In this document: positions 827-28,627 of the stretch, one piece after another
Position numbering within the stretch: position 1 is the first letter of the stretch
Layout: each line of letters starts with the position of its first letter
From: a virus
Reading direction: 5' to 3' (one strand)
IMG/VR virus record: IMGVR_UViG_3300031658_000069
Coordinates: 1 to 29,884 of that record
DNA: 29,884 nucleotides
Position numbers and translations under genes: made by a program
Notes under the pieces: model-generated
What the model saw: the letters and a program-made list of their open reading frames with translations, nothing else
What the model was told of the DNA's origin: nothing
Databases searched by the model: none

Positions 827-1009
827 ATGACTTTAGACCAAATCAGAGAGCAGCTTGCAGACAGCAACCTGCGTAAGGTTGCCGAAGCATGTGGCCTGCA
901 CTATAACGTAGTGACCAGGCTAATGAAGGGCGACACGGACCCACGCTACTCAACAGTTGAGCTTTTGGCCAACTATATAAAGGCGCGGGAACATGGCCAA
1001 AATATTTGA
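827..1009 (+). CDS. Small helix-turn-helix DNA-binding protein
   Basis: A 60-residue protein from the ATG at 827. This start is chosen because AAGGA (814-818) sits eight bases upstream; in-frame ATGs at 779 and 818 would give up to 76 residues but lack a good ribosome site. Residues about 13-45 (VAEACGLHYNVVTRLMKG) form a typical helix-turn-helix of the XRE/Cro kind, followed by a short helix (VELLANYI). The gene overlaps the primase-helicase by 17 bases, so the two are co-translated. It faces the divergent minus-strand operon across a region with an inverted repeat, so it may act as a Cro-like early regulator. No integrase or other lysogeny gene is seen, so calling it a lysogeny repressor would be unsupported. 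Confidence 0.65.
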   Translation: MTLDQIREQLADSNLRKVAEACGLHYNVVTRLMKGDTDPRYSTVELLANYIKAREHGQNI

Positions 1010-3017
1010 TCACCCTTTTAGACCGCTAGAAGCTCCCAAGGCTGATCCGCCAGAATTCCAGTTAATCGCTGCAATGGTGGCGTCAGGATTAGTTCCTCCT
1101 GATAAGGTCCACCTCGATGGCCAGCTCCACAGATGGGGCGGAAGCGGCAAGCGAGACAAGAACAGTTGGTACTGTTGCTTTGCCGATGGCATTCCTGCTG
1201 GCAGATTTGGCGATTGGCGCTTAGATCTTGAGGTCACTTGGCGAGCAGACGTTGGACGAGCGTTGACTAGTGCAGAGCAGATGGCCCACAGTCGCAGATT
1301 GAGTGAGTCTAAAAAAGTTCGTGACGCTGAAGTGGCCCAGAAACGTGAAGTCGCAAGCCATACAGTTGAAACTATCTGGAGTAAGTGTACAGGATCTGAG
1401 GATACTCACCCGTACCTGCAGCAGAAGGGAATCAGCTCCCATGGCTCTCGTGTGACTGGCGATGGACGCCTGGCCCTGCCTTTATATGGCACAGATGATA
1501 GTATTAGTAGCCTGCAGTACATTAGCTCGGAAGGCGGTAAGCAATTCCATGCTGGTGGTGCAGTGTCTGGAAAGTTCTGGACCCTGGGCACTATGGACGA
1601 GGATGGACCGCTCTTTATTGCTGAAGGCTTTGCTACGGCGGCAACCATTACCGAAACCACAGGCAGGCCATGTGTTGTAGCCTACAGCGCCAGTAACCTG
1701 CCCGCAGTCACTGAAGTCATGCGTCAAAAATACGGTGCTGGCCAAGAAATAATTGTCGTGGCAGACAACGACGATCACGGCGTGGGGAAGAAATATGCAG
1801 ATATGGCGGCTGACAAATACGGCGCTAAAGTGATCATGCCGCCCATCAATGGTGACGCTAACGACTACGCCAAGGAGACTAGCGAACAAGACTTACTGGA
1901 TCTACTTTTGCCACCCTCCAGCAGCATCTACGACACACTTCGAGTGGTCAGCGGTGACTCTCTGCCAGAGGAATACAACGCCCCGGACGAGCTAATCCAG
2001 GACATGATTGTGCGTAAGTCGCAGTCGCTTTTGTTCGGTGACAGTAACTCAGGCAAGACCTTTTACGCTTTGTCAATGGCCCATTCTATCTGTGAAGGCG
2101 TGAATTTTATGGGAAAGAAAGTAGAACAAGGCGCGGTAATATACCTGGCAACAGAGAGTCCAGCAAGTGTCATCAGCCGGGTTCAAGCCATAAAAGACTA
2201 CCATAACTGCCAAATGAAGAACCTTTTCATCGTCCAAATCCCCATCAATTTCTTTACCAGCGACCAACATGCCATCGAAGTTATTGCCCTCATTAAGCAG
2301 GTTGAGGCCGACACAGGCGTCAAGGTTAACCTCGTTATTGGTGACACATTAGCTCGCATGACAGCAGGTGCAAACGAGAACTCTGGCGAGGATATGGTGC
2401 CCATTTTGCAGCGCATAGACTCGGTTATTTACGAGGCTAATACTGCCTTTTTAATCATCCACCACAGTGGTAAAGATGCGTCCAGAGGTGCTCGTGGTAG
2501 CTCAACAATCAGAGCCCATATAGACACTGAAATCTACGTGGTAGAGGAGAATCTACAGCGCACAGCGACCATAACCAAGCAACGAGAACTGCCCTCAAAG
2601 GGCGTTGAAATACCCTTTAAGTTGGCCGTTGTGGAGATGGGAATCAGCAAATTTGGCGAGCAAGTCAGCACCTGTGTCGCAGTATTTGATGACGAAGAGC
2701 GCGTCCAAAAGGTCAAAAAAGACTCCAAAATAGAGAAGAATAAGAAGCTTATTGAGCGTGCCTGGTGGTCAGGTGGTGCAGAAATTCGCCCATTTAAAGA
2801 CTCAAACGTGCCTTATATTAGCACCTCAGCCTTCAAAGAAATGCTAAGAAATGATGGATTAAAGGACTCAGCCATCAACAATTACATGAAGCCAAGCTAC
2901 GATAATGGTCCTATATGTGTGCTAATAAACGGCGAAATAATCGCCAAACATGAGCATGGATATGTCATTTTAGACCTCATTATGGCCTCTGCTTTTATGC
3001 TCAGGAAGGGTAAATAA
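993..3017 (+). CDS. Primase-helicase (TOPRIM plus RecA-like helicase)
   Basis: The 674-residue protein combines RNA primer synthesis with DNA unwinding at the phage fork. The N-terminal part has a phage primase signature (DGQLHRW, then WYCCFADGIPAGRFGDWR, residues 42-76). The TOPRIM domain follows: Glu211 in IAEG and the acidic cluster DNDD (258-261). A RecA-like helicase domain has Walker A GDSNSGKT (349-356), Walker B ending IGD (about 449-451), and an IIHHSGKD...RGARGSS segment (488-504) typical of RepA/AAA_25-type helicases. The C-terminal 100 residues look like a winged-helix region. There is no clear CxxC zinc ribbon, unlike T7 gp4. The start ATG lies inside the end of the HTH gene with only a weak ribosome site, consistent with coupling. 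The repeat array just downstream (3029-3145) may be its replication origin. Confidence 0.88.
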   Translation: MAKIFDHPFRPLEAPKADPPEFQLIAAMVASGLVPPDKVHLDGQLHRWGGSGKRDKNSWYCCFADGIPAGRFGDWRLDLEVTWRADVGRALTSAEQMAHSRRLSESKKVRDAEVAQKREVASHTVETIWSKCTGSEDTHPYLQQKGISSHGSRVTGDGRLALPLYGTDDSISSLQYISSEGGKQFHAGGAVSGKFWTLGTMDEDGPLFIAEGFATAATITETTGRPCVVAYSASNLPAVTEVMRQKYGAGQEIIVVADNDDHGVGKKYADMAADKYGAKVIMPPINGDANDYAKETSEQDLLDLLLPPSSSIYDTLRVVSGDSLPEEYNAPDELIQDMIVRKSQSLLFGDSNSGKTFYALSMAHSICEGVNFMGKKVEQGAVIYLATESPASVISRVQAIKDYHNCQMKNLFIVQIPINFFTSDQHAIEVIALIKQVEADTGVKVNLVIGDTLARMTAGANENSGEDMVPILQRIDSVIYEANTAFLIIHHSGKDASRGARGSSTIRAHIDTEIYVVEENLQRTATITKQRELPSKGVEIPFKLAVVEMGISKFGEQVSTCVAVFDDEERVQKVKKDSKIEKNKKLIERAWWSGGAEIRPFKDSNVPYISTSAFKEMLRNDGLKDSAINNYMKPSYDNGPICVLINGEIIAKHEHGYVILDLIMASAFMLRKGK

Positions 3018-3028
3018 TGGCTCTCAAT

Positions 3029-3145
3029 AAAGGTACAAGAAGGTACATTGTACCTATTTTGTACCTTGTACCTTTTACCGTCAAAAGTGTACTAAAAAGG
3101 TACATAAAGGTACAACAACCCTTTAGGGGTTGTACCCTTGTACCT
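3029..3145. repeat. Array of GGTACA/TGTACC half-sites (candidate origin iterons or operator)
   Basis: Four direct GGTACA copies begin at 3032, 3042, 3099 and 3109; five inverted TGTACC copies begin at 3049, 3060, 3067, 3131 and 3139. A near copy, TGTACT, lies at 3088. Two half-sites make the perfect 15-base palindrome AGGTACA-T-TGTACCT (3041-3055). A 7-bp hairpin, ACAACCC/GGGTTGT, spans 3115-3133. This is the only real gap between the primase-helicase and the packaging genes. Dense inverted and direct short repeats next to a primase gene fit an origin or a multi-site operator; which one is inference. Confidence 0.6.
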
Positions 3146-3193
3146 AAGTACTAACCCAAGTTTCTTGGCCTATGGTTAAGATCATAATTAAAG

Positions 3194-3202
3194 TGATATA
3201 AT
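3194..3202 (+). promoter_or_regulatory. Extended -10 promoter for the packaging/head operon
   Basis: TGA-TATAAT (3194-3202) is a perfect extended -10 element; a -35 at 17 bases (GGTTAA, 3174-3179) is poor, as is common for extended -10 promoters. It lies 42 bases before the small terminase start and just after the GGTACA array. The same AAGTG-(1-2 bases)-TATAATA pattern recurs before 13770, suggesting a shared phage promoter class read by host RNA polymerase. Confidence 0.55.
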
Positions 3203-3243
3203 ATTCGCTTGAATAAATCGACTGGCTAACGGAGACGATTGTG

Positions 3244-3735
3244 ATGCGCTACAAAGATGCAGAAAAGAATAAGATCAGCGAAAAAGTATTCGCTCTCATG
3301 GAGACAGGACTTCCTTGTGGAAAGTCTTGCTTCAAGGTTGGTGTTCCTAAGAGTACGTTTCTCGGATGGGTGAAGCCGGAAGGCAAGCTTGCCGACCAGT
3401 ACGCGGGCGCGCGCGAGGCAATGATACACGCAATTGCTGAAGAAGTGCTACAGATTTCCGACACCGAGCCGGTGTCAATTGTTGACCAGCACGGCATCTC
3501 TCGTTATGACTCTGCTGCAGTGCAGCATCAACGCTTGATGGTGGACAGTAGAAAATGGCTGCTCTCCAAGATGATGCCAAAAGTCTATGGCGACAAAACA
3601 ACACAAGAAGTCACTGGTGCAAATGGTGGCCCTCTCACAATCACAGCTCTCGACCTCAAGAACCTGACGGACGAAGAGCTCGACAATATGGACTACCTTA
3701 TGTCCAAAGGATCTAAAGAAGCTGACGTAAAATGA
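3244..3735 (+). CDS. Terminase small subunit
   Basis: The 163-residue protein should recognise phage DNA and regulate the packaging motor. Residues about 12-45 form a helix-turn-helix (ALMETGLPCGKSCFKVGV, then STFLGWV). A central helix (IAEEVLQISD) is followed by a conserved C-terminal segment (RLMVDSRKWLLSKMMPKVYG) that is the hallmark of Sf6-gp1-like small terminases. It directly precedes, and overlaps by four bases, the large subunit. GGAG (3231-3234) serves either the ATG at 3244 or a GTG one codon earlier at 3241; the ATG is preferred. The C-terminal acidic tail (LTDEELDNMDYLMSKG) is likely the contact to the large subunit or portal, by analogy with the family. Confidence 0.85.
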   Translation: MRYKDAEKNKISEKVFALMETGLPCGKSCFKVGVPKSTFLGWVKPEGKLADQYAGAREAMIHAIAEEVLQISDTEPVSIVDQHGISRYDSAAVQHQRLMVDSRKWLLSKMMPKVYGDKTTQEVTGANGGPLTITALDLKNLTDEELDNMDYLMSKGSKEADVK

Positions 3736-5312: not shown

Positions 5313-8300
5313 TTGAGAGGCAATGCATTCCAACGAGGCCGTTCACCGCTGCAGAGATTTGCTCAAGGCTCGGACGAGCCGGTAGCAGAGATCAGCCAGC
5401 CATACCAGCCATCCAGCTCAATACCTAATGTTATTGGTGACGTAATCACCGACACAGTCTCTGGAATGTTCGGCCCCATCGGCGCGTCAGCCATTTCTCT
5501 TGGCGAGCAATACTTCACCGACCATACGATGGAGGAGCTTGAGGCGAACAACGCAGCTTACAATAAAGCCTTTAACTACAATCCCCGGACCGCCGGTGGC
5601 CAGGCCATCAACAAGGGCGCCATGGATCTTATGACCCAGGGCGTTACGGCTGGGATGGAAGCATACAGCGAAAACAAGGACAGCCTGGGCCCGATACCTG
5701 GCATGGTTGACTACGGGCTTGAGAAGTACAACGAGCTCGACCCTGAGACTCAGTTTGCTTTAGGCAATGTGCTAACTGTTGGCGAGGTTCTGCCTATTGG
5801 CAAAGCGGCCAGCATGGTCAAGCAAGGAGTGAAAGGCGCAGTAGACACCAGAAGGATAGGCCGTGCAGCTGATTTAGTGCCGGACGAAAGCGCTTACCTG
5901 CCCCTCCAGGATAGACTGGAAGAGATGGGAGCTCGGCAGCTGGCCGTCGATGATGTCCCGCCGGTTCCGGAAGTTGCTGTTGTATTGACAGATATTGACC
6001 ACCGCCTAACACCAATGGCGCGTGGAGTTGCAGATAAGCGAATTGCCCTGGAGAAAGAGATGGCTCTGCTAGAGGCGGAGCGATCTGGCAAAAAGCCAAA
6101 GGCTGTCCAGAGTCGCGTTAAAATCGACGACCTGGCAAAAACATTTGATGAGGACCACCTCAACGTACATGGCAGAAAGCTAGACCCGACAGTGCCAGAG
6201 GACCAGTTAACAGCTGCGCGAATCATTGCCGCCGACATCGACGAACAGATGACGCAAGCAAACTCCGGCGCAGGATGGTATGATGCCGATGTTGAGAAGA
6301 CTTTCCAGATGCTGGGCGAGATACCTGGCCTAGAAGCATTAAAGAATAATGAGACGAAAAGAATAATCTGGTCGGCTCTTGCTGCGCCTACATCAATTGG
6401 GCAGAAGGTTATAGGCAACACGAAGGCGGCTACGGCTGCCATGTTGACCTATGCGCGAACCGGAGAGATCCCAACCGTAGCGCCAGGCAAGGGAGCAGTG
6501 ACCGAAGGCATACAGAATGCTGGGTGGGGCTTCAAGCAAAAGTCAGTAGAGCCTGGCATGAAAGTCATATCGAAGCTGCTCAGCAAGTACGGCGAAGAAG
6601 GTTTTGCAGACTGGTGGCTATCGCCTCACTCTCTAAAAGAGTTGACAGATATTAGGAAAGAGGCCGGGCTAGGCGGTGCGCCTACCGGGCTAAGTGGCGG
6701 CAAAGACAGCATCCACCTTGGAGCTATGATTCTTGGCGACAAGACAGGCCGCTTCTCTCTGAACATAAATGGATACGAGGGGACCACGAAAGACGTTTGG
6801 TATTCTCGTAGCTACAACCGCGCATTCGGTCAGATGTTTGGCGCGAACGATCCGAAGACTGGGTTGCCTGTAGTTCAGGGCGGGCCCAGGAATCAAACTG
6901 AACGCCGACAAATGGAAGCGTTCAACCAGCTGGTGCTGGACAATACTGCGTTAAAAGGATTATCAGAAGCCGATGCACAAGCGGTTCTGTGGTTCTATGA
7001 ACAAGGTTTATATTCCCGTCTAGGCGTTAAATCACGCCCAGGCTCATTTAGTGAAGGTGTAGGAGAAGTATATGGGTCTCTCGGAGTACGACAGCCAGTT
7101 CGCGGAAGCGATGGCATTGAAATTGAAATTGAACCGCCAGGCGCGCTCGAAGACTTCCGAGGCATCAGCGGTCGCAAGCGAGCCATCCGTGCAAACAGAC
7201 GGGCTGGCCTCGACGCGGGCACCGATAATGGCGGCGGTAATCTCTCGGAATCCGGGCCTTACCGAAGCGAAATTATCGAGAATGATGGACGAGATGGGCT
7301 TTTAAGCTTTTCCCCTGATCCAGCTACTCTAGGCAAATACCAGGCGGCAGGGCTCAACCTGCCGAACATCAACCAGGTAGACTCGCCATCCAACGCCGCA
7401 ACTTATAATACCGACATGACAGAAGCCATGTCTGGCCATGAGTTCGGCCCTCAAGTAGAAATCAAGAGTGCAGAAGACCTTGCTCAGGCAAGTCTGTTCC
7501 GCACCACCGATGGCAGCGGCTTTGCCATCAAGCCTGACGGCGATATTGTCGCCGTATTCACTTCCGCAGGCGAGCCCAAAGGCGGCTCTTACTCAATGAT
7601 CCAGGCAGCGGTCCAAGCGGGCGGCAAGAAGCTTGATGCATTCGATACCTATCTTCCAGACATTTACGAGTCAGCCGGATTCCGTCCAGTTGCCCGACTC
7701 CCGTGGAACGACGACTACGCCCCGGCAGGATGGGATAAGAAGACGTTCGTAGAGTTCAATAATGGCGAGCCAGATGTCGTTTTCTTTGTCCAAGATTCAA
7801 ACTACTTTGGTGGCGCAAAAGATGTCCCCATCGTTAAAGACTACGACCAGGCTGTTTCTCTTCAGGACCAGGCGCTGCAAGCTCTGGCCAATCCAGTAGA
7901 AGGTTTTGCTGCAGGCGGAATGGTTCGTCAAGAATACAACGCCGACCGCATCAACCAGATTGCTATGGATATTCAGGGTTACGCTGGAGGAGGCTTGATA
8001 GATAAAGCCATTCAGAAAGGCGCCGAGGCATTAGGCTTTGGCCATGACCGACAGCTTGCTATTAGCCAGGAAGCCGTGGACCTTACCAACGAAATGGTAG
8101 ACGCCGGGCTGATCGAAGAGCGCTACAGAGTTGAGCTCTTGGTTCCCAAGTCTGGCGAAGAACAGACCAGGCAGAACGCTGGCATCAGAGGCGATGAAGA
8201 GGTATTCAACGCCGTAAACCACGCGCTATTCTCCTATGATGCAGGGCAGAGCAAGATTGCTTCCATTGCCAGCCAGGCAAAAGAAATGTACCAGGGCGTA

Positions 8301-8690
8301 AAGAAGAAGCTGAAAGGCGGCGACCCTAAGTCTGAGTACCTTGATTACTTTAACAACAAGTTCGGCTTTAACCTGGCAGAGCAGGGGTTGGATCGTAATC
8401 AAGCCAAGAACGCTATTATGGATAGCATTGGAAACATAGACCAGAAAGGCGTTAGAGGCCGACTAACTCGTGGCGAAGAGCTGGTAGGTGGTGAGGTCTT
8501 GGTGACCAACGCTGAAGACATAGACTATGCATTTGCTGAAGGCGGAGCAGTTAACGCTAAATATGACGCAGATAAGATAAATAAAATTGCACAGGGTATA
8601 ATGTCTGAGAACTTTGCCGAAGGCGGTCCAGTGATTTATAACGCTAGCAGGATTAATGAAATCGCCAACCGAATACTAGAGGAGTTGTAA
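5313..8690 (+). CDS. Very large multidomain phage protein (possible ejected or polyvalent-like protein)
   Basis: The 1125-residue protein starts at a TTG (5313), supported by TAGGAG (5298-5303) nine bases upstream; no ATG in frame is near. The N-terminal third is Ala/Gly-rich with amphipathic stretches (IGDVITDTVSGMFGPIG). The middle, roughly residues 330-585, is a soluble domain that includes QAVLWFYEQGLYSRLG, a motif I have seen in other large phage proteins. Residues about 722-830 end in DIYESAGFRPVARLPW, resembling the end of a GNAT acetyltransferase fold. The C-terminal 260 residues carry three copies of a [FY]A-x-GG ... YxAxRINxIAxxI motif. Placement between terminase and portal with a size over 1000 residues suggests a virion or ejected protein. 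Function is not established; enzyme activity is inference. Confidence 0.6.
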   Translation: MRGNAFQRGRSPLQRFAQGSDEPVAEISQPYQPSSSIPNVIGDVITDTVSGMFGPIGASAISLGEQYFTDHTMEELEANNAAYNKAFNYNPRTAGGQAINKGAMDLMTQGVTAGMEAYSENKDSLGPIPGMVDYGLEKYNELDPETQFALGNVLTVGEVLPIGKAASMVKQGVKGAVDTRRIGRAADLVPDESAYLPLQDRLEEMGARQLAVDDVPPVPEVAVVLTDIDHRLTPMARGVADKRIALEKEMALLEAERSGKKPKAVQSRVKIDDLAKTFDEDHLNVHGRKLDPTVPEDQLTAARIIAADIDEQMTQANSGAGWYDADVEKTFQMLGEIPGLEALKNNETKRIIWSALAAPTSIGQKVIGNTKAATAAMLTYARTGEIPTVAPGKGAVTEGIQNAGWGFKQKSVEPGMKVISKLLSKYGEEGFADWWLSPHSLKELTDIRKEAGLGGAPTGLSGGKDSIHLGAMILGDKTGRFSLNINGYEGTTKDVWYSRSYNRAFGQMFGANDPKTGLPVVQGGPRNQTERRQMEAFNQLVLDNTALKGLSEADAQAVLWFYEQGLYSRLGVKSRPGSFSEGVGEVYGSLGVRQPVRGSDGIEIEIEPPGALEDFRGISGRKRAIRANRRAGLDAGTDNGGGNLSESGPYRSEIIENDGRDGLLSFSPDPATLGKYQAAGLNLPNINQVDSPSNAATYNTDMTEAMSGHEFGPQVEIKSAEDLAQASLFRTTDGSGFAIKPDGDIVAVFTSAGEPKGGSYSMIQAAVQAGGKKLDAFDTYLPDIYESAGFRPVARLPWNDDYAPAGWDKKTFVEFNNGEPDVVFFVQDSNYFGGAKDVPIVKDYDQAVSLQDQALQALANPVEGFAAGGMVRQEYNADRINQIAMDIQGYAGGGLIDKAIQKGAEALGFGHDRQLAISQEAVDLTNEMVDAGLIEERYRVELLVPKSGEEQTRQNAGIRGDEEVFNAVNHALFSYDAGQSKIASIASQAKEMYQGVKKKLKGGDPKSEYLDYFNNKFGFNLAEQGLDRNQAKNAIMDSIGNIDQKGVRGRLTRGEELVGGEVLVTNAEDIDYAFAEGGAVNAKYDADKINKIAQGIMSENFAEGGPVIYNASRINEIANRILEEL

Positions 8691-8691
8691 C

Positions 8692-11289
8692 GTGGCTGAA
8701 GAAAACGAGATTGAAGTAGAAATAGAAGAAATCACAATGGTAGAGCTCCCAGAAGAAGACGAGCTGGAAGTTGAAGACACCGAAGACGGTGGAGCGATTG
8801 TTCTAATGGAAGAGATTTCCGTGAAGGAAGGCTCTGAGCACTTTGCGAACATCGTGGAAGAGGTGGACCAGCGCCTACTGAAGACCACTATCGACGACTT
8901 GATGACCAAGATTGAGCGCGACAAAGAGGCTCGCCAGAAGCGCGACCTTCAGTACGAAGAAGGCTTACGCCGCACCGGCCTGGGCGATGACGCACCAGGT
9001 GGAGCCACGTTCCAGGGAGCCAACAAGGTTGTGCATCCCATGCTGGTCGAGGCGTGTGTTGACTTCTCCGCACGTTTTATTAAGGAAATCTTTCCGCCTA
9101 CTGGCCCCGTTAAGTCCAAGATCATAGGCGAAGCAGATAAGGCTAAGGTCGGCAAGGCCCAGCGCAAGACTGAATTCATGAACTGGCAGACCACCGAACA
9201 GATGGTCGAGTTCCGCTCCGAGCTAGAACAGCTCAGCACGCAGCTGCCACTAGGTGGCGGTCAGTACATGAAGTTCATGTGGAACGCTCGATTCATGCGC
9301 CCTGTGTCTGAGTTCGTACCTATTGACGACATCTACTTACCATTCTCTGCCACTAACTTCTACACCGCAGAGCGAAAAACGCACGTTCAGTACGTGACTC
9401 AAATGGAGTACGAGAAGCGTGTCGAGGCGGGCATGTACGCAGATATTGACCTGCCTATTGCCAATGAGCCAGAGTTTAGCGCAGCTGAGCGTGCCAACGA
9501 GAAAATCGAAGGCAAGCAAAACACCAGCTACAACGAAGACGGTCTGCGGACCATCTTTGAGATCTACACGTTCATGGACTTTGAAGATGGCGAAGGCTTG
9601 GCCCCGTACATCTTGAGCGTGGACAAGTCATCTGATAAAGCCCTGGCTATCTACCGCAACTGGGAAGAAGACGACGACAGGAAGAATGAGCTGCATTGGA
9701 TTGTAGAGTTCCCATTCGTGCCATGGCGCGGCGCTTACCCAATCGGCCTGACTCATATGATCGGCGGATTGAGCGGCGCAGCGACTGGCGCATTACGAGC
9801 CCTACTAGACTCGGCTTACATCCAGAACGTACCGACACTACTGAAGCTGAAGGGCGGACCAAACGGTCAGACTCTGAATGTTCAGCCGACTGAGATCGTT
9901 GAGATGGAAGGCGGCGCGTTGATCGATGACGTTCGTAAGCTGGCTATGCCGCTGCCGTTCGCCGGTCCAAGCCCGACTTTGTTCCAGCTGCTAGGCTTCC
10001 TAGTTGATGCAGGCAAGGGCGTGGTTCAGACTTCCTTTGAGAAGTTTAACGACCAGAATCCTAATGCCCCGGTGGGCACCACGATGGCTATCATCGAGCA
10101 GGGCATGGTTGTGTTTAGCTCAATCCATTCTCGCTTGCATGCCTCGATGGCTCGCAGCTTTAATATCCTGCACCGCATCAACAGCATGTACTACACGCAG
10201 GAAGAGCTCGATGCCCTGGACGCGGGATTAGAGATCACTGCAGAAGACTTCGATGGCCCATCTGATGTTGTACCGATCAGCAACCCGGCGATCTTTAGTG
10301 AGGCTCAGCGCTTCGCACAGATCCAGGCGATCATGGCGCGTGCTGAAAAAATGCCGCAAATGTACGACCAAAAAGCTGTCGAGGAAATGTTCCTACGGAC
10401 GCTAAAGGTTCCCGCTTCAGAAGTATTGAAGCCGCTACCAGGATCAGAAGACCGAGATCCAGTAAGCGAAAACGTGGCAGCTGCAATGAACCAGGGCATC
10501 TATGTGCTCCCTCAACAGGATCACCTGGCTCACCTGCAGGTTCACTTACCGTTCTTAAAGTCGCCAATGTTTGGGTCTAGCCCTGGCATCATGAGCACGT
10601 TCTTTTATCCAATGGCCATGCACATGCGTGACCATCTATTGAACTACTACCTGGTGGAGTCGCATAACGCCATCGACGAGGCGCAGAGTCAAGAACTGAT
10701 CCCGGAAGAAGCAGAGCAGCAGGTTGATGTAATCCTCAAGGTTCAGCAGTTTATTGAAGGACAGCTAGGTGGATTCGCTGAAGAACTGGTTCAGATTAAT
10801 CAACAAGCAGAACAATTCAAGCCTGAAAACCAGCCGCAACAGCCAGGTGATGCAATGAAGATTGCAGAGCTTAGCGCGCAGATTAAGCAGGGCGAGCTTC
10901 AGCAGCGCACCGAGCGTGATGGCGCCAGGCTACAACTGGACAACGCCAAAATGCAGGCGGCTAATGAGATTGCACAGCTTAAAATGCAGCAGAGCGCCGA
11001 GATGGAGCGCGCCAAGCTGGCAGCCAAAGAAGCGGACCGTGACGAAAGGGCAGAAATTGCCGGGCTTCGTGAAATGTCTGCAACAGAGCGCAATAACATC
11101 AGTGAGATGTCTGAGACGGATCGCCTCAATACTCGTGAAGCAGGCGAGAATAAGCGTAAGGCAGAAGACTTGGCAGCACGAGAGCGCATTAACAGCGCAG
11201 ATAACATGACCGCCAAAGAATTGGCAGCTATGGAAATGGAGTCTGGTGAAAAGACTTCATACACTAGCGGGAAGGGAATTGATCCATAA
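8692..11289 (+). CDS. Portal protein
   Basis: The 865-residue protein forms the dodecameric ring at the capsid vertex through which DNA is packaged and ejected. It follows the terminase genes, is of portal size, and has typical portal features: an acidic N-terminus; a segment around residues 95-130 (GATFQGANKVVHPMLVEACV); ARFIKEIFPPTGPVK, where the wing domain begins; and a long Gln/Glu/Ala/Lys-rich coiled-coil C-terminus (about 665-850), like the barrel helices of podovirus portals. The start is GTG at 8692 with AGAGGAG (8678-8684) at good spacing. Its stop overlaps the next ATG (TAATG). It is larger than the 536-residue T7 portal, so the phage is not a close T7 relative. The assignment rests on position, length and sequence feel rather than a diagnostic motif. 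Confidence 0.85.
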   Translation: MAEENEIEVEIEEITMVELPEEDELEVEDTEDGGAIVLMEEISVKEGSEHFANIVEEVDQRLLKTTIDDLMTKIERDKEARQKRDLQYEEGLRRTGLGDDAPGGATFQGANKVVHPMLVEACVDFSARFIKEIFPPTGPVKSKIIGEADKAKVGKAQRKTEFMNWQTTEQMVEFRSELEQLSTQLPLGGGQYMKFMWNARFMRPVSEFVPIDDIYLPFSATNFYTAERKTHVQYVTQMEYEKRVEAGMYADIDLPIANEPEFSAAERANEKIEGKQNTSYNEDGLRTIFEIYTFMDFEDGEGLAPYILSVDKSSDKALAIYRNWEEDDDRKNELHWIVEFPFVPWRGAYPIGLTHMIGGLSGAATGALRALLDSAYIQNVPTLLKLKGGPNGQTLNVQPTEIVEMEGGALIDDVRKLAMPLPFAGPSPTLFQLLGFLVDAGKGVVQTSFEKFNDQNPNAPVGTTMAIIEQGMVVFSSIHSRLHASMARSFNILHRINSMYYTQEELDALDAGLEITAEDFDGPSDVVPISNPAIFSEAQRFAQIQAIMARAEKMPQMYDQKAVEEMFLRTLKVPASEVLKPLPGSEDRDPVSENVAAAMNQGIYVLPQQDHLAHLQVHLPFLKSPMFGSSPGIMSTFFYPMAMHMRDHLLNYYLVESHNAIDEAQSQELIPEEAEQQVDVILKVQQFIEGQLGGFAEELVQINQQAEQFKPENQPQQPGDAMKIAELSAQIKQGELQQRTERDGARLQLDNAKMQAANEIAQLKMQQSAEMERAKLAAKEADRDERAEIAGLREMSATERNNISEMSETDRLNTREAGENKRKAEDLAARERINSADNMTAKELAAMEMESGEKTSYTSGKGIDP

Positions 11290-12132: not shown

Positions 12133-12326
12133 ACATCGATTCAAAACTACTGAATCTTCTCAAGGCTAATCAGGCAGAGTTTGCGCTTGAAGCTTTGAAG
12201 AAGCCTCATAAAAGCGATGCCTTCGAGTACGGGTTTCGCGTTGGAATGGTTGCTGGATATGAAGCATCCATCAATGTGCTCTTAAACTTACTAGACGAGG
12301 AACGAAATAATGACGACGACCTATGA
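12129..12326 (+). CDS. Small conserved hypothetical protein
   Basis: A 65-residue protein starting at GTG (12129) that overlaps the previous TGA (GTGA) and ends inside the next gene by 17 bases. It is helical and amphipathic (LLNLLKANQAEFALEALKKP, then FEYGFRVGMVAGYEASINV) and ends acidic (LLDEERNNDDDL). No membrane segment or known motif is evident. Short 'FEYGRRVG...G' helical proteins of this kind occur near phage co-chaperonin genes. Tight overlap on both sides supports it as a real gene translated by coupling. Function unknown. Confidence 0.65.
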   Translation: MNIDSKLLNLLKANQAEFALEALKKPHKSDAFEYGFRVGMVAGYEASINVLLNLLDEERNNDDDL

Positions 12327-12726
12327 GGACGCAATCGCGGAGGCTTTTCCAACTGTTTGTCCTGGAATTCAGCCTTTCGGTAGCCGCGTTCTGGTTCAAA
12401 TACGCACCGCTAAGAACAAAACAGCGGGTGGAATAATACTCACTAACGATACCACTGATACGGAGAAGTGGAATACGCAAGTCGCTAAAGTTGTCACAGT
12501 TGGACCATTGGCTTTCAAAAATCGTAATACGATGGAGAGCTGGCCAGAGGGTAACTGGTGCAAGGAAGGTGAGTTTGTAAGGGTTGCTAAATACGGAGGA
12601 GATCGATGGGAAGTACCTATTCCCGGAGCTACCAACGGCGAAGCAGCAATGTTTGTAATTTTTAATGATCTTGACATTCTGGGTAGCGTTATTGGCGATC
12701 CATTAAAAGTTAAGGCATTCATCTGA
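12310..12726 (+). CDS. GroES-like phage co-chaperonin
   Basis: The 138-residue protein has the GroES core: FGSRVLVQI at the start, the flexible loop with KTAGGIIL (about residues 36-44), which in GroES docks onto GroEL, then VAKVVTVGP, EGEFVRVAKYGGDRWEVP and a final strand. It is longer than bacterial GroES (about 97) because of an insertion, FKNRNTMESWPEGNWCKEG, also seen in phage versions. Phage co-chaperonins such as T4 gp31 enlarge the GroEL cage so capsid protein can fold. Its position just before scaffold and capsid fits that role. GAGGAA (12297-12302) precedes the ATG by seven bases. The assignment is strong; the capsid client is inferred. Confidence 0.87.
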   Translation: MTTTYEDAIAEAFPTVCPGIQPFGSRVLVQIRTAKNKTAGGIILTNDTTDTEKWNTQVAKVVTVGPLAFKNRNTMESWPEGNWCKEGEFVRVAKYGGDRWEVPIPGATNGEAAMFVIFNDLDILGSVIGDPLKVKAFI

Positions 12727-22143: not shown

Positions 22144-22545
22144 ATGGCTAATCCAAACATCGTCGCTGTAACGAGTATTTACGGCAAAACTACTTATTTA
22201 ACACCATCGGCAACCACTTCAGTGGTATTACTGCCTAATGCGGCTTCAAGCGGTACGGTTATGAAAATTAACCAGATTGTGGCTTCAAACGTAGACGGTA
22301 GTAATGCTGTTAACGTGAGCGTTGACATATACACCAATGGTGCAGTGGCTCAAGGTTCTGCCCCATCAGGCGGTACAGCGTACCCGATTGCTTCGACAAT
22401 CTCGGTTCCTGCTGATGCCACGTTGATTGTGGTAGACAAGACAACAGCCATTTACTTGGAAGAGGGCACTTCAATTGCCGTCACAAGTGGAACGGCCAGT
22501 AAGATTTCATACAGCGTGAGTTACGAATTGATCTCTGCTGCATAA
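22144..22545 (+). CDS. Small beta-rich fibre-associated protein (paralogue of 20955)
   Basis: A 133-residue protein with AGGAGA upstream of the ATG. Strands VMKINQIVASNVDGSNAVNV, then AYPIASTISVPADATLIVVD and ISYSVSYELI align by eye with the 110-residue protein encoded at 20955, sharing order and spacing. The combination fibre gene plus this small protein occurs twice in a row (19287-21287 and 21535-22545), pointing to a segmental duplication followed by divergence. Likely virion-associated; role unknown. Confidence 0.62.
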   Translation: MANPNIVAVTSIYGKTTYLTPSATTSVVLLPNAASSGTVMKINQIVASNVDGSNAVNVSVDIYTNGAVAQGSAPSGGTAYPIASTISVPADATLIVVDKTTAIYLEEGTSIAVTSGTASKISYSVSYELISAA

Positions 22546-22560
22546 AGAGGATGTAAGACG

Positions 22561-23676
22561 ATGGCCATAACCGACAGAAAAGGCGGGTTTATATTCCCTG
22601 GTTACGATCCGCTTCAGGTACCAAATCCGCCTACGGGTGTTGCGGCATCAGCCTCACCATCTTCATCGGTAACTTTTACTGCCCCCACAGTTGTTGGCGG
22701 TGCGGCCATAACGTCTTATACGGCTACCGCAATACCAGCTTCTGGGGTAGCAATTACTGCTACGGGTGCCAGTTCCCCTGTAGTTTTATCGGGGCTTGCT
22801 ATTGGAACCGCTTACTCCGTCCGTGTTACCGCTTTTAATCCCTACGGCCCCAGCGCATCCAGTACCCCTGTGAGTGTAACGCCTATCTCCCCTGGGCAAT
22901 CAGCTTACACAACTGCGGGAACTTTTTCTTGGGTTGCCCCTTCTGGAGTAACCAATGTTTCCGTTGTAACCGTTGGTGGTGGTGGTGGCGGCACATATAA
23001 CGGTAGTGGTAATAGTGGTGGCGCTGGCGGTGGTCTTGCTTGGAAGAATTCTATTTCAGTTACTCCGGGGAGTTCTTATACAGTAGTAGTTGGTGCAGGA
23101 GGACTACCCTCACCAGGAGACAACGTGGTAGTAGCGAGTGGACAGGATTCAACTTTTCAGACTGTTACTGGTGGAGGTGGAGCTAACGCACTCAGAAGTA
23201 CTACAGCGATTGGAGGCGCACCATCAAATCACGGTGGAGGAGGTTCTGGAGGAGATGCATACGAAGGAGGCAATGGCGGTGGTGGTGCCGGTGCTGGCGG
23301 TTATTCCGGTGCTGGAGGAAGGTTTCAATCCGGAACTGCCTATGATGGCGCAGGCGGTGGTGGAGCTGCGGGTGTTACCGGTAGTGGATCTACTGGTGCT
23401 GGTGCTGGTGGCGGTGTTGGTATTTTAGGAGAAGGCGCTTCTGGTACTGCGACTAATACCGTAGGTAGTAGTGTTGGTGGTGGTGGTGGCTCAGGTGGTG
23501 CAACTGGTGCTGGAGGCGGTAATAGTCATGCTATCAATAATGGTGGCTTATATGGCGGTGGCGCGGCTGGTATGTATAACGGCACTACAGCAGCCACAGG
23601 CGCTTCTGGCGCGGCTCGTATCATCTGGCCAGGAGATACTAGATACTTTCCATCCACAGGCACAGGGGATCAATAA
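22561..23676 (+). CDS. Fibronectin-III plus polyglycine adhesin (tail fibre tip), copy 1
   Basis: A 371-residue protein with AGAGGA before the ATG. Residues about 20-110 form a fibronectin type III domain (PNPPTGVAASASPSSSVTFT, then GTAYSVRVTAFNPYGPSASS). Next comes AYTTAGTFSWVAPSGVTNVS and VVTVGGGGGG, the start of a glycine-rich domain of about 230 residues built of GGGGAGG-type runs, ending ARIIWPGDTRYFPSTGTGD. Such glycine-rich tips form polyglycine-II sandwiches in phage adhesins (Salmonella phage S16 gp38 is the known structure) and bind host surface receptors through variable loops. A sulfotransferase gene follows at once. Confidence 0.78.
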   Translation: MAITDRKGGFIFPGYDPLQVPNPPTGVAASASPSSSVTFTAPTVVGGAAITSYTATAIPASGVAITATGASSPVVLSGLAIGTAYSVRVTAFNPYGPSASSTPVSVTPISPGQSAYTTAGTFSWVAPSGVTNVSVVTVGGGGGGTYNGSGNSGGAGGGLAWKNSISVTPGSSYTVVVGAGGLPSPGDNVVVASGQDSTFQTVTGGGGANALRSTTAIGGAPSNHGGGGSGGDAYEGGNGGGGAGAGGYSGAGGRFQSGTAYDGAGGGGAAGVTGSGSTGAGAGGGVGILGEGASGTATNTVGSSVGGGGGSGGATGAGGGNSHAINNGGLYGGGAAGMYNGTTAATGASGAARIIWPGDTRYFPSTGTGDQ

Positions 23677-24222
23677 GTGTATATTAAAAGTATTAATAGC
23701 TACTTCATAGAAAACCCCAAATGTGGTTCGCGTACTGTGGATTATGTTTTGAAGAGTATTTTCCCCGTTGACGATATGTCCCTTGAAGGGCATTTACCTT
23801 TTGAAGATGTAATAGGTAAAATACCTAAAGACGCCAAAATATACGGTGTAGTAAGGAATCCTCAAGATAGGCTGATTAGCGCGTTATTCATGTGGTGTAC
23901 CACCACGGCACAGGTAGATGAACATTTAAGAAGAGTGCTTGGAGGGATGAAAAGTAATGATCGATGTCTAGTCCATCATGTATACGGACCTCAAGTACGT
24001 TATGTTCCTAATTCTCCAAGGGTAAAGATTTTTACTTTTGAAAACTTAACCGCTCTCATTAGATTATTGGGGTGGAAGAAAGAAATACCCCAGCAAAATA
24101 AAGCGTTGGTTGGCCTGTCTGCAGAAGATGCGAAAAATAGACCATTATTTTCTGAAGTGTTAAATCTTTATAAAGATGATTTTTCTTTATATCAAAATAT
24201 CCGCCTAGCGGGAGGTCAATAA
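23677..24222 (+). CDS. Sulfotransferase (Sulfotransfer_2-like), copy 1
   Basis: A 181-residue protein whose GTG start (23677) directly follows the adhesin stop, with AGGGGA (23664-23669) as ribosome site. NPKCGSRT (13-20) is the PAPS 5'-phosphosulfate loop; VVRNPQDRLISAL (58-70) is the 3'-phosphate-binding motif with Arg60 and Ser68. His39 in EGHLPFEDV is placed like the catalytic histidine of carbohydrate sulfotransferases. It would move sulfate from PAPS to a sugar or protein hydroxyl. The family is normally longer, so it is compact but has all core motifs. It is AT-rich: the line 24121-24180 is 17/60 GC, against 33/60 at 9241-9300 in the portal gene. The substrate is unknown. Confidence 0.78.
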   Translation: MYIKSINSYFIENPKCGSRTVDYVLKSIFPVDDMSLEGHLPFEDVIGKIPKDAKIYGVVRNPQDRLISALFMWCTTTAQVDEHLRRVLGGMKSNDRCLVHHVYGPQVRYVPNSPRVKIFTFENLTALIRLLGWKKEIPQQNKALVGLSAEDAKNRPLFSEVLNLYKDDFSLYQNIRLAGGQ

Positions 24223-25352
24223 TGCCCAATTTATCTGGTAAGTGGACACAGTCACAAGTTTTATCTGCGGGCATAGCTTGGTATAAATTACCTGGTCCAC
24301 CAACCAGCGTTTCATCAGTTGCAGGAAATGCCAATGCAGTTGTTTCGTTCACTGCTCCCGCTGACTTAGGAATACCATCCGTTTATCAATACGTTGTCAC
24401 TGCAACGACTGGTGGTACCAGCGTAACTGGGACGGGATCATCATCTCCCATCACAATATCGCTGACCAATGGCCTCACCTACACGATTGTAATTCAGGCA
24501 CAAAACACCGCAGGATATAGCGCTTCTGCCTCAGGCGGATCAGTTTCCCCTGTTGGGCCACTGCAATACGCCTACACAACGGCGGGAACTTATACTTTTG
24601 TAGCTCCAACGAACCTAAGCCCATCTACCGTATCTGCTATAGCGGTGGGTGGCGGCGGCGCTGGATCAGCAGGTAGAGCTGGAGGTAACGGTAATGGCGG
24701 CGGCGGTGGCGGTTTAGGTTATGTTAATAACGTAAGTGTTTCTGGGGGGACTAGCTATACCGTTGTGGTTGGTGCCGTTGGGGGTAATAGCACTATAAGT
24801 TCATTTAGTCTAGCGGGTAATGGTCCTACCGGAACGTATAATGATACTGGCGGTACATACACAGGTGCTGCTGGTGGTGGTAACGGAGGTAACGGTGGTT
24901 ATAACGGTAGTCCTGGCGGAGGCGGAGCTGGCGGATATTCTGGCGGAGGCGGTACAGGTAGCGGTAAGGGTGGTACTGGCGCAGGATCAGGCTCTCCTGG
25001 CGGTGCTGGCGGTGGTGGAGTAGGAATATTAGGTCAAGGCTCTAATGGTGCTGGCGGTACAAGCTCTTATAGTGCCGGAACAGCTGGGCAGAATGGCGGC
25101 GGCGGCGGCGGCGGTGGTTCTTATAATGGTGCCGTAGGCGGCGGTGGTGGCGGGTCAGGCGGTAATAATGGCTCTAACTCCACAGGAACTATTGTCGGGG
25201 CTGCAGGTGGCGGCTATGGCGGAGGCGGAGGCGGTGGAGCCACGTCAGGTTTAGGAGCTGGTGGAGCAGGCACATCTGGTGCAGTTCGTATAATCTTTTC
25301 TACGTCTGGCATGTCAAGATCATTTCCATCTACAAATACAGGAGATTTATAA
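24222..25352 (+). CDS. Fibronectin-III plus polyglycine adhesin, copy 2
   Basis: A 376-residue paralogue of the protein at 22561. Order is the same: short lead, fibronectin-III domain (PGPPTSVSSVAGNANAVVSF, then GLTYTIVIQAQNTAGYSASA), AYTTAGTYTFVAPTNLSPST, glycine-rich domain, and ending VRIIFSTSGMSRSFPSTNTG. GGAGG precedes the ATG, which overlaps the sulfotransferase stop (TAATG). The adhesin copies differ mostly inside the glycine-rich loops, as expected for receptor-binding diversification. It probably offers an alternative or additional tip on the fibres. Confidence 0.78.
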   Translation: MPNLSGKWTQSQVLSAGIAWYKLPGPPTSVSSVAGNANAVVSFTAPADLGIPSVYQYVVTATTGGTSVTGTGSSSPITISLTNGLTYTIVIQAQNTAGYSASASGGSVSPVGPLQYAYTTAGTYTFVAPTNLSPSTVSAIAVGGGGAGSAGRAGGNGNGGGGGGLGYVNNVSVSGGTSYTVVVGAVGGNSTISSFSLAGNGPTGTYNDTGGTYTGAAGGGNGGNGGYNGSPGGGGAGGYSGGGGTGSGKGGTGAGSGSPGGAGGGGVGILGQGSNGAGGTSSYSAGTAGQNGGGGGGGGSYNGAVGGGGGGSGGNNGSNSTGTIVGAAGGGYGGGGGGGATSGLGAGGAGTSGAVRIIFSTSGMSRSFPSTNTGDL

Positions 25353-25795
25353 TGAAATGTTATATTAGAGTAGTAGACGGTGCTCCTCATGAACACCCAA
25401 TTGTTAAAGTTAATATGGAGCAGGCTTTCCCTGATATAGATCTTGATAACCTGCCGCCTGAATTTAATCAGTTTGTTCGGCTTGAGGCTCCAGCATTAGG
25501 CGTGTACGAGAAAAATCAGACCGTTTTTTATGAGCTTGTTGAGGGTATGGCCGGTACTTATACGGACGTATTTTCCTGCGAACAGATGACCACAGAAGAA
25601 ATAACGGCCAAACAGGACGTTGTTAAAGCTGAATGGGCTGTTTCCCCAAACTGGGCTTCTTGGACATTCAATGACGCCCTATGCACTTACGTTCCTCCTG
25701 TTCCAATGCCCGACGATGGTCTTTTATATGCATGGAGTGAAAGCACGCTGACTTGGGTTCAAGTTGACTATCCTTGGGATGGGGAGATTTCATAA
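25352..25795 (+). CDS. Putative fibre-assembly / fibre-associated protein
   Basis: A 147-residue protein coupled by TAATG on both sides. It starts MKCYIRVVDGAPHEHPIVKV and contains AFPDIDLDNLPPEFNQFVRL and a Trp-rich end (WASWTFNDALCTYVPPVPMP, then LTWVQVDYPWD). This type (MKxYI...PxEHPI...AFPDID..NLPP.F) is common beside glycine-rich adhesins in marine myo- and podoviruses and looks like a small chaperone or capping subunit of the tip. It sits between adhesin copies 2 and 3 and may serve one or both. Confidence 0.62.
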   Translation: MKCYIRVVDGAPHEHPIVKVNMEQAFPDIDLDNLPPEFNQFVRLEAPALGVYEKNQTVFYELVEGMAGTYTDVFSCEQMTTEEITAKQDVVKAEWAVSPNWASWTFNDALCTYVPPVPMPDDGLLYAWSESTLTWVQVDYPWDGEIS

Positions 25796-26757
25796 TGTCA
25801 ATTAAAGACTGGCCAGGTGGTGTTATATCAAATTCTCCAGTAGTTCCTGCAGGGCCGTATCAAACTGACGCGGCTTCTGGTATATGGACCTTAGATCAAG
25901 CTGCTGACTATGCTAAGCAGGGTATTTGGCCTGTGGCGGGGAGTGTCGCTCCAATGAATGTTGACTACCTATTAGTGGCTGGTGGCGCTGGCGGTGGTGG
26001 TGGCTATTACGGTGGTGGTGGTGGAGCTGGCGGCATGCAAACCAGTACTGTCAGTATTATAGTAGGTGCTACTTTCTCTATCAGTGTGGGTGGTGGCGGT
26101 GCTGGTGGTAATCATTACTCCCACGGAGCCCCTTGGCGCGGGACTAGCGGTACTAATTCTAGTATATCGGGTGGCGCATCTGCTTCCTCAACGGGCGGCG
26201 GTGGTGCTGGTGGTTATAAATCAGGCTATCAAACAGGTCTAAATGGTGGATCAGGTGGTGGATCAGCTAATGGAACCCCCGCAGGCGGCACAGGAGTAGT
26301 AGGGCAGGGCTATGCAGGTGGTGGTGGTGGGTCTTATGATAATAACGGCAGTGGTGGTGGTGGTGGTGGTGCGGTTGGTATAGCCCCACCTACTAGCAAT
26401 ACTGGTGGTTATGGTGGCGTTGGCCTATCTAACTCAATAATAGGTTCAGCAACTTATTATGCAGGCGGTGGTGGAGGTGCTTCACAGACAGGCACTGCTG
26501 CTGGTGGAAATGGTGGTGGTGGTAATGGCACCAGTCAATTCCATACAAATGGTGGTAATGGTACAGCAAACTCAGGCGGTGGTGCTGGCGGAATGAGAGG
26601 TGGTAATGCTGATGGCGGCACAGGAGGTTCTGGCGTTGTTATACTCCGTTACCCTGACTCTAACGGAACAGCCGCCTCAGTATCAGGTGCGACTTACTCT
26701 AACCCTACTGGCTACCATGTTTATAAGTTCAACGGCTCTGGTTCGATAACCTTCTAA
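25795..26757 (+). CDS. Glycine-rich adhesin, copy 3 (no fibronectin domain)
   Basis: A 320-residue protein starting at the ATG at 25795 (TAATG overlap; GGGGAG upstream). Residues 1-45 (SIKDWPGGVISNSPVVPAGP, then GIWTLDQAADYAKQGIWP) are the fibre-binding lead seen in many cyanophage-like structural proteins. VDYLLVAGGAGGGGG begins the glycine-rich domain, ending GGSGVVILRYPDSNGTA and a last strand (YHVYKFNGSGSITF). It lacks the fibronectin-III domain of copies 1 and 2, so it likely came from another source. It includes a perfect (GGT)7 tract at 26351-26371. Confidence 0.76.
   Translation: MSIKDWPGGVISNSPVVPAGPYQTDAASGIWTLDQAADYAKQGIWPVAGSVAPMNVDYLLVAGGAGGGGGYYGGGGGAGGMQTSTVSIIVGATFSISVGGGGAGGNHYSHGAPWRGTSGTNSSISGGASASSTGGGGAGGYKSGYQTGLNGGSGGGSANGTPAGGTGVVGQGYAGGGGGSYDNNGSGGGGGGAVGIAPPTSNTGGYGGVGLSNSIIGSATYYAGGGGGASQTGTAAGGNGGGGNGTSQFHTNGGNGTANSGGGAGGMRGGNADGGTGGSGVVILRYPDSNGTAASVSGATYSNPTGYHVYKFNGSGSITF
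26351..26371 (+). repeat. Perfect (GGT)7 microsatellite inside adhesin copy 3
   Basis: Twenty-one bases of uninterrupted GGT-phase repeat encode glycine. Because units are codons, slippage would change glycine number without breaking the frame. Similar shorter tracts occur in the other adhesins, for example GGC repeats near 25097-25112. This could diversify receptor-binding loops; no variation can be seen in one sequence. Confidence 0.8.
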
Positions 26758-27560
26758 TGGCTAATAAACTGGTGCTATTGGCAGGACTACCCCGAACTGG
26801 TTCCACGTTACTAGCGAATATACTTGCTCAGAATAGTAGATTCCATCTTGAAAGTAATTCGGGTCTATGTCAGTTGATGTGGGATATGCAGGAGTCATGT
26901 GATAGTAATTGTGTAGAACAGTTAACCGCTAACAACAAGCTAGAATCAGTAAGATCTAGCCTTGTTGGGGGGTTGCCAGATATTTATTACAAAGGGATTT
27001 CTGACAAGGTTATTTTTGATAAGTGTCGCCCGTGGGTGATGCCTGCAAATATAAAAATGGCCAAAGAATACATCTCTAAGGATATTAAAGCGATTGTTCT
27101 TGTTAGGCCTATAAATCAGATAATAAAGTCTTTCGCTAAGTTGCATTTTAAAAATGGTGGGGACGCCTCTATTTATAGTGAATTATTAGAGAATGATTTG
27201 GAAGTGGTGATGCGGTCATTTACAGCCACCTACTTAGCGGCAAAAGAAAAATACAGTAACTGTTTATTTGTATCTTACGATAGCATTGTTGAAGACACTG
27301 CAAACGTATTAAGAGAAATATACAGCTTCATTAATGAAGATAAATTTATACATGATGTTAATTCAGTTAGGCAGGTTATCAGTGAAGAGAAATCCACATA
27401 TAACCTAAAAAATATACATTCTATAAGAAATAAAGTTTCTAAAATTAAGAATGATATAGTCTTACCTGAGTGGGTTGAAGAAAAATGTCGCATCATGACT
27501 AACGCTCTTTACACAGAATTCAAGGGGATGAAAAATGGCTCACTTTGCGGAACTGAATAA
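26757..27560 (+). CDS. Sulfotransferase (Sulfotransfer_3-like), copy 2
   Basis: A 267-residue protein with the PAPS loop LAGLPRTGSTLLANIL (8-23) at the N-terminus and a 3'-phosphate-binding motif VLVRPINQIIKSFAKL (114-129) with Arg117 and Ser125. FDKCRPW (87-93) matches the DK-P segment often seen after the first helices. It shares no obvious similarity with the sulfotransferase at 23677 beyond these motifs, so the two arrived separately. The ATG overlaps the adhesin stop (TAATG) without a clear ribosome site. It is strongly AT-rich: the three lines 27241-27420 hold 50 G/C in 180 bases. Marine phages are known to carry this family near fibres; the substrate is not known. Confidence 0.83.
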   Translation: MANKLVLLAGLPRTGSTLLANILAQNSRFHLESNSGLCQLMWDMQESCDSNCVEQLTANNKLESVRSSLVGGLPDIYYKGISDKVIFDKCRPWVMPANIKMAKEYISKDIKAIVLVRPINQIIKSFAKLHFKNGGDASIYSELLENDLEVVMRSFTATYLAAKEKYSNCLFVSYDSIVEDTANVLREIYSFINEDKFIHDVNSVRQVISEEKSTYNLKNIHSIRNKVSKIKNDIVLPEWVEEKCRIMTNALYTEFKGMKNGSLCGTE

Positions 27561-27921
27561 TGATAACGTGGTTATTCGTGTCTTAGTGGTAAGAAATGAA
27601 GACATTTTAGACTCTAATGGAGACGAGTCTGAAGACGTTGGGGTCAGTTACTGCCAGGCACTTTTTAGCGGTAATTGGGTTCAGACCAGTTATAACCATA
27701 ATATCAGAAGAAAGTATGCTGAAATTGGCGGATATTATGATGAAAGTGCTAATGTATTTATTAGTTATAATCCTTATCCTAGCTGGATTCTTAACGAGAA
27801 TAGTGACTGGGAAGCGCCGCATAGCGCCCCTAGTGATGATAACCATTATCGGTGGGATGAATCTACGGTAGATTGGGAGCAGATACCTTATGATGAATTA
27901 CCTCCCGCATTGCAATCTTAG
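27535..27921 (+). CDS. Fibre-associated structural protein (MAHFAEL type)
   Basis: A 128-residue protein that overlaps the sulfotransferase by 26 bases, with GGGGATG just upstream of the ATG. MAHFAELNNDNVVIRVLVVR, then ILDSNGDESEDVGVSYC, NWVQTSYNHNIRRKYAEIGG and PYPSWILNENSDWEAP follow a pattern very common in cyanophages and other marine phages, where it is found in fibre or virion contexts, sometimes fused to fibres. It probably closes the fibre/adhesin module. The specific function is unknown. Confidence 0.68.
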   Translation: MAHFAELNNDNVVIRVLVVRNEDILDSNGDESEDVGVSYCQALFSGNWVQTSYNHNIRRKYAEIGGYYDESANVFISYNPYPSWILNENSDWEAPHSAPSDDNHYRWDESTVDWEQIPYDELPPALQS

Positions 27922-27930
27922 GGTGATACC

Positions 27931-27981
27931 GTGCTAGCTGCAATAAGCGCGTTAATCGGACCAGTTTATGCTAGCCGATAA
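27931..27981 (+). CDS. Possible 16-codon leader peptide before the holin-like gene
   Basis: GTG at 27931 with TTAGGGTGA upstream opens a 16-residue frame (M/VLAAISALIGPVYASR) that overlaps the start of the following gene by 14 bases. The holin-like gene's own ATG has only a weak site (CGGA), so translation of this short frame could drive it by coupling. Hydrophobic composition recalls the first residues of phage holins, so it may also be a decayed start. Tentative. Confidence 0.3.
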   Translation: MLAAISALIGPVYASR

Positions 27982-28626: not shown

Positions 28627-28627
28627 T

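Follow-up and report, generated by a model that had tools for sequence, protein, structure and literature searches.

We found that a dense array of short repeats, directly behind the primase-helicase gene of a marine phage, is probably a replication origin whose iterons would be bound by the C-terminal winged helix predicted for that same primase-helicase. The DNA analyzed, called the window here, is the whole of IMG/VR virus record IMGVR_UViG_3300031658_000069 (29,884 bases), and its terminase and head genes identify it as a tailed phage. A preliminary description of the array had offered three readings, namely, a replication origin with iterons, a pac/terminase recognition site, and an operator cluster controlling late genes. 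The first is favored, since the array is linked to the primase and its unit covaries with the predicted winged helix of that protein. The linkage comparison speaks against the second, and the third is less likely because it is the primase, not the terminase, that the array accompanies. Taken as a whole, the earlier interpretation is thus partly supported.

Repeat array and gene neighborhood of the window

As previously described, nine exact copies of GGTACA or its complement TGTACC, four direct and five inverted, lie within 113 bp (3032 to 3144), between the primase-helicase and terminase genes. The array starts 14 bp past the primase stop codon, and no open reading frame of at least 50 aa covers it, in agreement with the claim that no gene explains it. 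Counting GGTACA over the whole window, as had been proposed, shows that the word is concentrated at the array: there are 26 matches, compared with 12.05 ± 3.48 expected from shuffles, and with 9 of them in the array, the remaining 17 are spread across 29.7 kb. The densest cluster of any single 6-mer per 150 bp has 9 copies at the array versus 3 to 5 when the whole window was simulated 60 times with a first-order Markov model. Clustering in the array is far above chance.

The units fall into two blocks. Block A (3032 to 3072) holds two direct units (GGTACA on the + strand at 3032 and 3042) followed by three inverted ones (TGTACC, i.e., GGTACA on the - strand, at 3049, 3060, and 3067), and it includes the 15-base palindrome AGGTACATTGTACCT that had been noted at 3041 to 3055. 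Block B (3099 to 3144) has two direct units 10 bp apart (3099 and 3109) and two inverted units 8 bp apart (3131 and 3139). Its center is a palindrome corresponding to the hairpin of the preliminary description (3115 to 3133; ACAACCC-TTTAG-GGGTTGT), which overlaps the first inverted unit. The spacer between the blocks (3073 to 3098) is 26 bp long and A+T-rich and contains a degenerate unit, TGTACT, at 3088 to 3093. An extra GTAC lies outside the nine exact units, at 3147 to 3150 within TAAGTACTAA. The array had further been placed ahead of a promoter; a + strand scan from the array to terS gave no sigma-70-like promoter, although a TATAAT near 3197 can be seen by eye. A literature search of open-licence papers returned nothing relevant on GGTACA iterons in phages.

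The gene order at the left end of the window is Sak4-like, HTH, primase-helicase, array, small terminase (TerS), and large terminase, followed by further genes including those for head proteins. The Sak4-like single-stranded DNA annealing protein (38 to 703, - strand; phrog_124, 2.9e-57) is encoded divergently in the same replication/recombination module as the primase, and its gene adjoins the primase gene in relatives too. A 76-aa HTH_3 protein (779 to 1009, + strand; Pfam, 5.6e-5), a probable regulator, is the upstream partner of the primase and is kept in many relatives. The primase-helicase itself (993 to 3017, + strand; 674 aa), which we propose to be the initiator, joins a TOPRIM domain (Pfam Toprim_3, 1.2e-11) to an RSF1010-RepA-like helicase (Pfam AAA_25, 1.4e-28), the latter with a profile match to the RSF1010 RepA structures 1g8y, 1nlf, and 1olo (E 1e-7).

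Other features of the window lie apart from this module. The large terminase gene is followed by two very long open reading frames without a Pfam match (5313 to 8690, 1125 aa, and 8692 to 11289, 865 aa), and the structural region contains a co-chaperonin GroES-like gene (12310 to 12726; phrog_3188, E 1.3e-11). Seven copies of CGCCAG at 24772 to 24910 form a repetitive stretch inside a late gene (open reading frame 24222 to 25352). GC skew is strongly positive at 22500 to 29500 (maximum 0.275), unlike in the remaining window.

Linkage of the array to the primase-helicase gene

Comparison with related loci shows that the array belongs to the primase-helicase gene and not to the terminase. The array is present in three loci (L011, L012, and L018) that have no homologous TerS or terminase in the 3.9 kb after it; in L018, it is followed by ParB-like and glucosyltransferase-like genes and then by terminase genes of other families. 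Conversely, loci L103 to L109 carry homologous TerS and TerL (TerL 84 to 85% identical) without a window-type primase and without the array, and the gene upstream of the terminase in one of them (L106) matches other primase families. The distance from the array to terS also varies, from about 100 bp in the window to about 2 kb in Salicola phage CGphi29 and about 6 kb in Alteromonas phage PB15. Conservation together with the terminase genes, by which a pac or cos site would be recognized, was not seen. The Sf6-type TerS (3241 to 3735, + strand; Pfam, 1.6e-21) is the neighbor of the array, not its partner. As a separate observation, the L018 glucosyltransferase, encoded together with the ParB-like protein behind the array (6199 to 7828), is related to HMC glucosyltransferases.

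Conserved architecture and turnover of the unit word

Among relatives, the architecture of the array is kept while its unit word turns over. We compared 138 nonredundant core-family loci, a nonrandom set gathered with a few query proteins, and scored an array wherever at least six nonoverlapping copies of one 6-mer occurred within 280 bp past the primase stop codon. Such arrays were found in 104 of the 138 loci, compared with 11 of 1380 Markov shuffles (0.8%), 12 of 2081 segments of 280 bp taken elsewhere in these loci (0.6%), and 0 of 956 segments from within the primase gene (0%). In three isolate genomes, unit density is 35 to 45 per kb in the array versus 0.3 to 0.4 per kb elsewhere, a difference of about 100-fold.

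Loss of the array in close relatives had been named in advance as a refutation; instead, every relative with at least 72% primase identity that reaches this position keeps it, with 9 to 12 GTAC cores each in the same place, although the word is not always GGTACA. As the half-site, GGTACA holds for the window and fails as a general word: it is shared by L001, L011, and L018, whereas arrays of other close relatives use GGTACT (L002 to L005, L007, and L009) or TGTACAA (L006, L008, L010, and L014). The letters flanking the GTAC core shift together within each of these arrays. Loci with primases about 50% identical have no GTAC arrays and show the same design in other words, mostly GCCCCT/AGGGGC, with CCGGAC in L027 and L028. 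Named isolates with primases only 34 to 38% identical also carry the array, namely, Salicola phage CGphi29 (GGGACA), Alteromonas phages XX1924 and PB15 (GGTTCA), and Idiomarinaceae phage 1N2-2 (GGTACA). Altogether, there are more than 20 kinds of unit, among them GGTACA, GGTACT, GGTTCA, GGGACA, AGGGGC, and CCGGAC.

More distantly, Roseobacter phages CRP-406 and CRP-811, which align with only a portion of the query (27 to 35% identity), have arrays after their primase/helicase genes. The CRP-811 array has 11 copies of CTACAAA, a word that occurs nowhere else in the 4.8 kb analyzed, and this phage shares the central palindrome of block B, with the same AACCCTTTAGGGTT center. Dense repeats also follow the stop codon for several TOPRIM/RepA proteins encoded on bacterial genome contigs.

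The conserved layout consists of block A followed by two direct units, a small TATA- or TTTA-centered palindrome, and two inverted units. Where block B is recognizable with such a center, its left units are 9 to 10 bp apart in 25 of 28 cases; 18 to 23 bp lie across the palindrome, and the right units are 7 to 10 bp apart. The palindrome is conserved in position and its center is usually TATA or TTTA, with stems that are varied but complementary. In many relatives (L140, L150, L165, L173, L185, and others), we also noticed a recurrent GGGGGCAAAA-like stretch separating the two blocks and GATGCGG-like stretches that recur just past block B, and both are possible further conserved origin elements.

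No obvious array was seen in L118 (primase 33% identical) or L023 (69%). One clade, in which the primase has an altered C-terminal domain (SRRNLIDGK or the like; L124 to L134, L142 to L145, L148, L151 to L158, and L161 to L163) is array-free in the DNA examined; after the stop codon, the array occurs in 0 of 20 such loci, and there is none in the flanks of those examined. Six other loci (L191 to L195 and L243) have GGTAC-type arrays with 10-bp spacing behind primases with a quite different C-terminal domain (KRKLRS...SNSKKQAF...), pointing to the possible existence of another type of reader domain.

Covariation of the unit with a predicted winged helix

Sequence comparison across relatives suggests how the unit could be read. 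The C-terminal domain of the primase-helicase (residues 566 to 674; 2688 to 3014, + strand) is predicted to be a winged helix: the AF2 model of this domain, built with 28 sequences, has a pLDDT of 88 and a pTM of 0.75, and its order of helices and strands is that of a winged helix. Neither a Pfam scan nor a sequence search of PDB gave a convincing family for the domain, and structure comparison gave nothing below E 0.09 with Foldseek and Z scores of at most 6.8 with VIA-align. Among the weak PDB structure matches are many winged-helix proteins, for example, linker histone, SmtB/HlyU, and RuvB; since these matches are weak, the assignment follows from the predicted topology. The corresponding domains of P4 alpha, SaPI Rep, and pRN1 are absent from the match lists, an absence that excludes nothing.

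Within this domain, the array unit appears to be read by the region around residues 625 to 638. In a partial Mantel scan of 67 representatives with less than 92% identity, we compared the k-mer spectrum of the array with sliding windows of the primase alignment while controlling for identity of residues 1 to 560. The peak fell on residues 625 to 638 (DSAINNYMKPSYDN; coded by 2865 to 2906, + strand), the predicted recognition helix and following loop; in the AF2 model, residues 625 to 632 lie in one helix, followed by a KPSYDNG loop. At this peak, the partial r is 0.572, a value reached by 0 of 2000 permutations in a test that models the tree incompletely, a shortcoming that an independent-pair test addresses in part. 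Windows before residue 590 have a mean of 0.004 (standard deviation, 0.196; maximum, 0.384). In 33 independent nearest pairs, the partial Spearman coefficient between the helix segment and the unit, given core identity, is 0.80. The rest of the C-terminal domain alone reaches 0.77 in these pairs, almost equal to the helix, and the helix retains 0.44 (P = 0.007) when that rest is also removed, suggesting that the whole domain evolves with the unit and that the helix adds to this.

Particular segments go with particular words. GGTACA accompanies [NK]NYMK[PA]SYD in the window, in L011 and L018, and in the 36%-identical L117, while KNYTKVSYG is paired with GGTTCA, NYMKMSYE with TGTACA, and ERTAKNKTE with AGGGGC. 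The pairing of helix and word extends to a member of another clade, L201, which has the word AGGGGC and a helix 79 to 86% identical to those of most of the AGGGGC group, with a core only 46 to 49% identical. Among the 67 representatives, 20 of the 24 with GGGG-word arrays have K, D, or E at residue 631, and 18 of the 30 with A/T-step words have Y there.

Proposed origin and alternative explanations

According to the proposed mechanism, the primase-helicase would use its C-terminal winged helix to bind the GGTACA units, and the spacing of the units at about one helical turn in two blocks would let helicase subunits assemble on the DNA. The spacer, as a melting region by analogy, and block B would then melt, and the TTTA-centered hairpin of block B, exposed as a single strand, may become the place where the TOPRIM primase is loaded or starts priming. 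Binding is suggested by the covariation and origin activity by the position of the array, its linkage, and known analogues, while melting and the hairpin role are likewise conjectural steps. As in iteron origins, the array is a compact noncoding cluster of short units enriched over the rest of the genome, and a putative cognate initiator encoded next door fits the unit, as judged from sequence covariation and linkage. Cumulative GC skew, another check proposed at the outset, gives no independent support; in two isolate genomes, its minimum lies about 2 to 2.5 kb from the array, at the divergent promoter/gene pair, where it is confounded with gene direction. Points that count against the origin model are the mismatched C-terminal domain of L191 to L195 and L243, the correlation of the HTH protein with the unit, and the near equality of the rest of the C-terminal domain and the helix.

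The array could instead be a site at which the primase-helicase acts in copy control, autoregulation, or partition and not at the start of replication, which we consider unlikely. The covariation evidence all concerns binding and none of it initiation, the next gene in L018 is ParB-like, and P4 has a second repeat region, for copy control. However, the unit forms no second dense cluster in the window or in the three isolate genomes, which leaves no evident candidate for alternative origin repeats, and analogous 3' arrays in PICIs have been shown to be origins (PMC6092414).

It is quite improbable that the array, instead of being an origin, is an operator through which the 76-aa HTH protein regulates the primase or genes downstream. 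Short inverted units are typical of operators, the HTH_3 gene shares the module in many relatives, and the HTH protein correlates somewhat with the unit; its partial r of 0.305, however, compares with 0.664 for the primase helix in the same 39 loci. Moreover, GGTACA is absent from the HTH gene's own divergent promoter region, and the HTH core is identical in the window (GGTACA), L005 (GGTACT), and L006 and L008 (TGTACA). The unit thus changes while the core of its supposed reader stays constant.

We regard as very unlikely that the array is a structured RNA or terminator ending the primase transcript, with selection acting on complementarity and not on a shared word. Such a role would fit the strong single-strand folding of the array (z, -5.9), the single terminator-like match at 3041 to 3055, and the stems at the center of block B, which vary yet stay complementary. 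Nevertheless, one word is common to all arms within each locus, including direct repeats about 10 bp apart, and pairing alone needs neither. Additionally, no Rfam family reaches its gathering score in the window region or nine relatives, and the unit varies in step with a segment of a protein. A hairpin that forms part of an origin would agree with the origin reading. Least probable is a pac/cos-like packaging site read by the adjacent TerS: terminase recognition sites often lie near terS, and the Sf6-type terS starts close downstream here, but the reading is contradicted by the loci with an array and no homologous TerS (L011, L012, and L018), by the reverse case (L103 to L109), and by the remote terS genes of CGphi29 and PB15.

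Implications

A literature search of open-licence papers found no published origin for these phages. With the origin reading, the position of a candidate, directly 3' of the primase-helicase gene, becomes predictable in over 100 sequenced relatives, among them cultured isolates of Salicola, Alteromonas, Idiomarinaceae, and Roseobacter. Since a 6-bp word and a short winged-helix stretch covary in a large natural data set, the specificity and evolution of initiator-origin pairs become directly testable with small proteins and short DNAs. More tentatively, these loci may well represent a widespread class of tailed-phage origins built on TOPRIM/RepA primase-helicases, in which a fixed architecture has had its 6-bp word rewritten more than 20 times together with the recognition helix. 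If so, they would offer a natural, readable protein-DNA recognition code, perhaps arising from avoided cross-recognition between co-infecting phages, along with a hairpin for primer synthesis.

Comparison with known systems

The closest parallels are found in SaPIs and other PICIs. The C-terminal domain of SaPI Rep recognizes iterons directly downstream of the rep gene (PMC7581432), and PICI origins lie immediately 3' of the initiator gene (PMC6092414). These systems share with the proposed origin an initiator helicase, two iteron sets immediately 3' of its gene, and recognition, proposed in the present case, by a C-terminal domain (PMC7581432, PMC6092414). The array of the window begins 14 bp past the stop codon, likewise in most relatives, and where SaPI/PICI iteron sets flank an AT-rich region, the window has two blocks and a 26-bp A+T-rich spacer. 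In contrast to these satellites with a SaPI-type Rep helicase, the genomes here are those of tailed phages with terminase and head genes, the helicase is RecA-like (AAA_25, RSF1010 RepA type) and fused to a TOPRIM primase, and direct and inverted units surround a hairpin. The Cch2 helicase of SCCmec similarly binds double-stranded repeats just past its own gene, where direct repeats are needed (PMC7581432), but it is D5/SF3-like, has a separate primase-polymerase, and is served by few repeats.

The origin of pRN1 is a stem-loop 3' of the replication gene, and P4 alpha binds origin repeats by a winged helix (PMC4234260). In pRN1, as here, the origin lies directly 3' of a primase-helicase gene (orf904) with a small regulator upstream, and the element is kept in shape and not in sequence (PMC4234260). 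Unlike the proteins described here, the pRN1 protein combines a primase of the archaeo-eukaryotic type with an SF3 helicase, and its large stem-loop has no iterons. RSF1010 has a RepA-type helicase and, at its origin, iterons and stem-loops (ssiA/ssiB), and the window protein would provide a hexameric RepA-type helicase as judged by its profile match. RSF1010, however, divides the work among three separate proteins (RepA, RepB', and RepC), with RepC on the iterons, whereas a single protein is proposed to bind them here. The helicase of P4 alpha belongs to SF3. Like the protein described here, in which the winged helix is predicted, P4 alpha unites a TOPRIM primase, a helicase, and a winged helix that binds repeats (PMC4234260); the window differs in its RecA-like helicase, no SF3 helicase being found, and in having the array right behind the gene. 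Thus, by joining a DnaG-type TOPRIM primase, an RSF1010-type helicase, and a predicted winged helix in one protein, the system resembles SaPI/PICI, P4, and pRN1 in its working and is a member of none of them.
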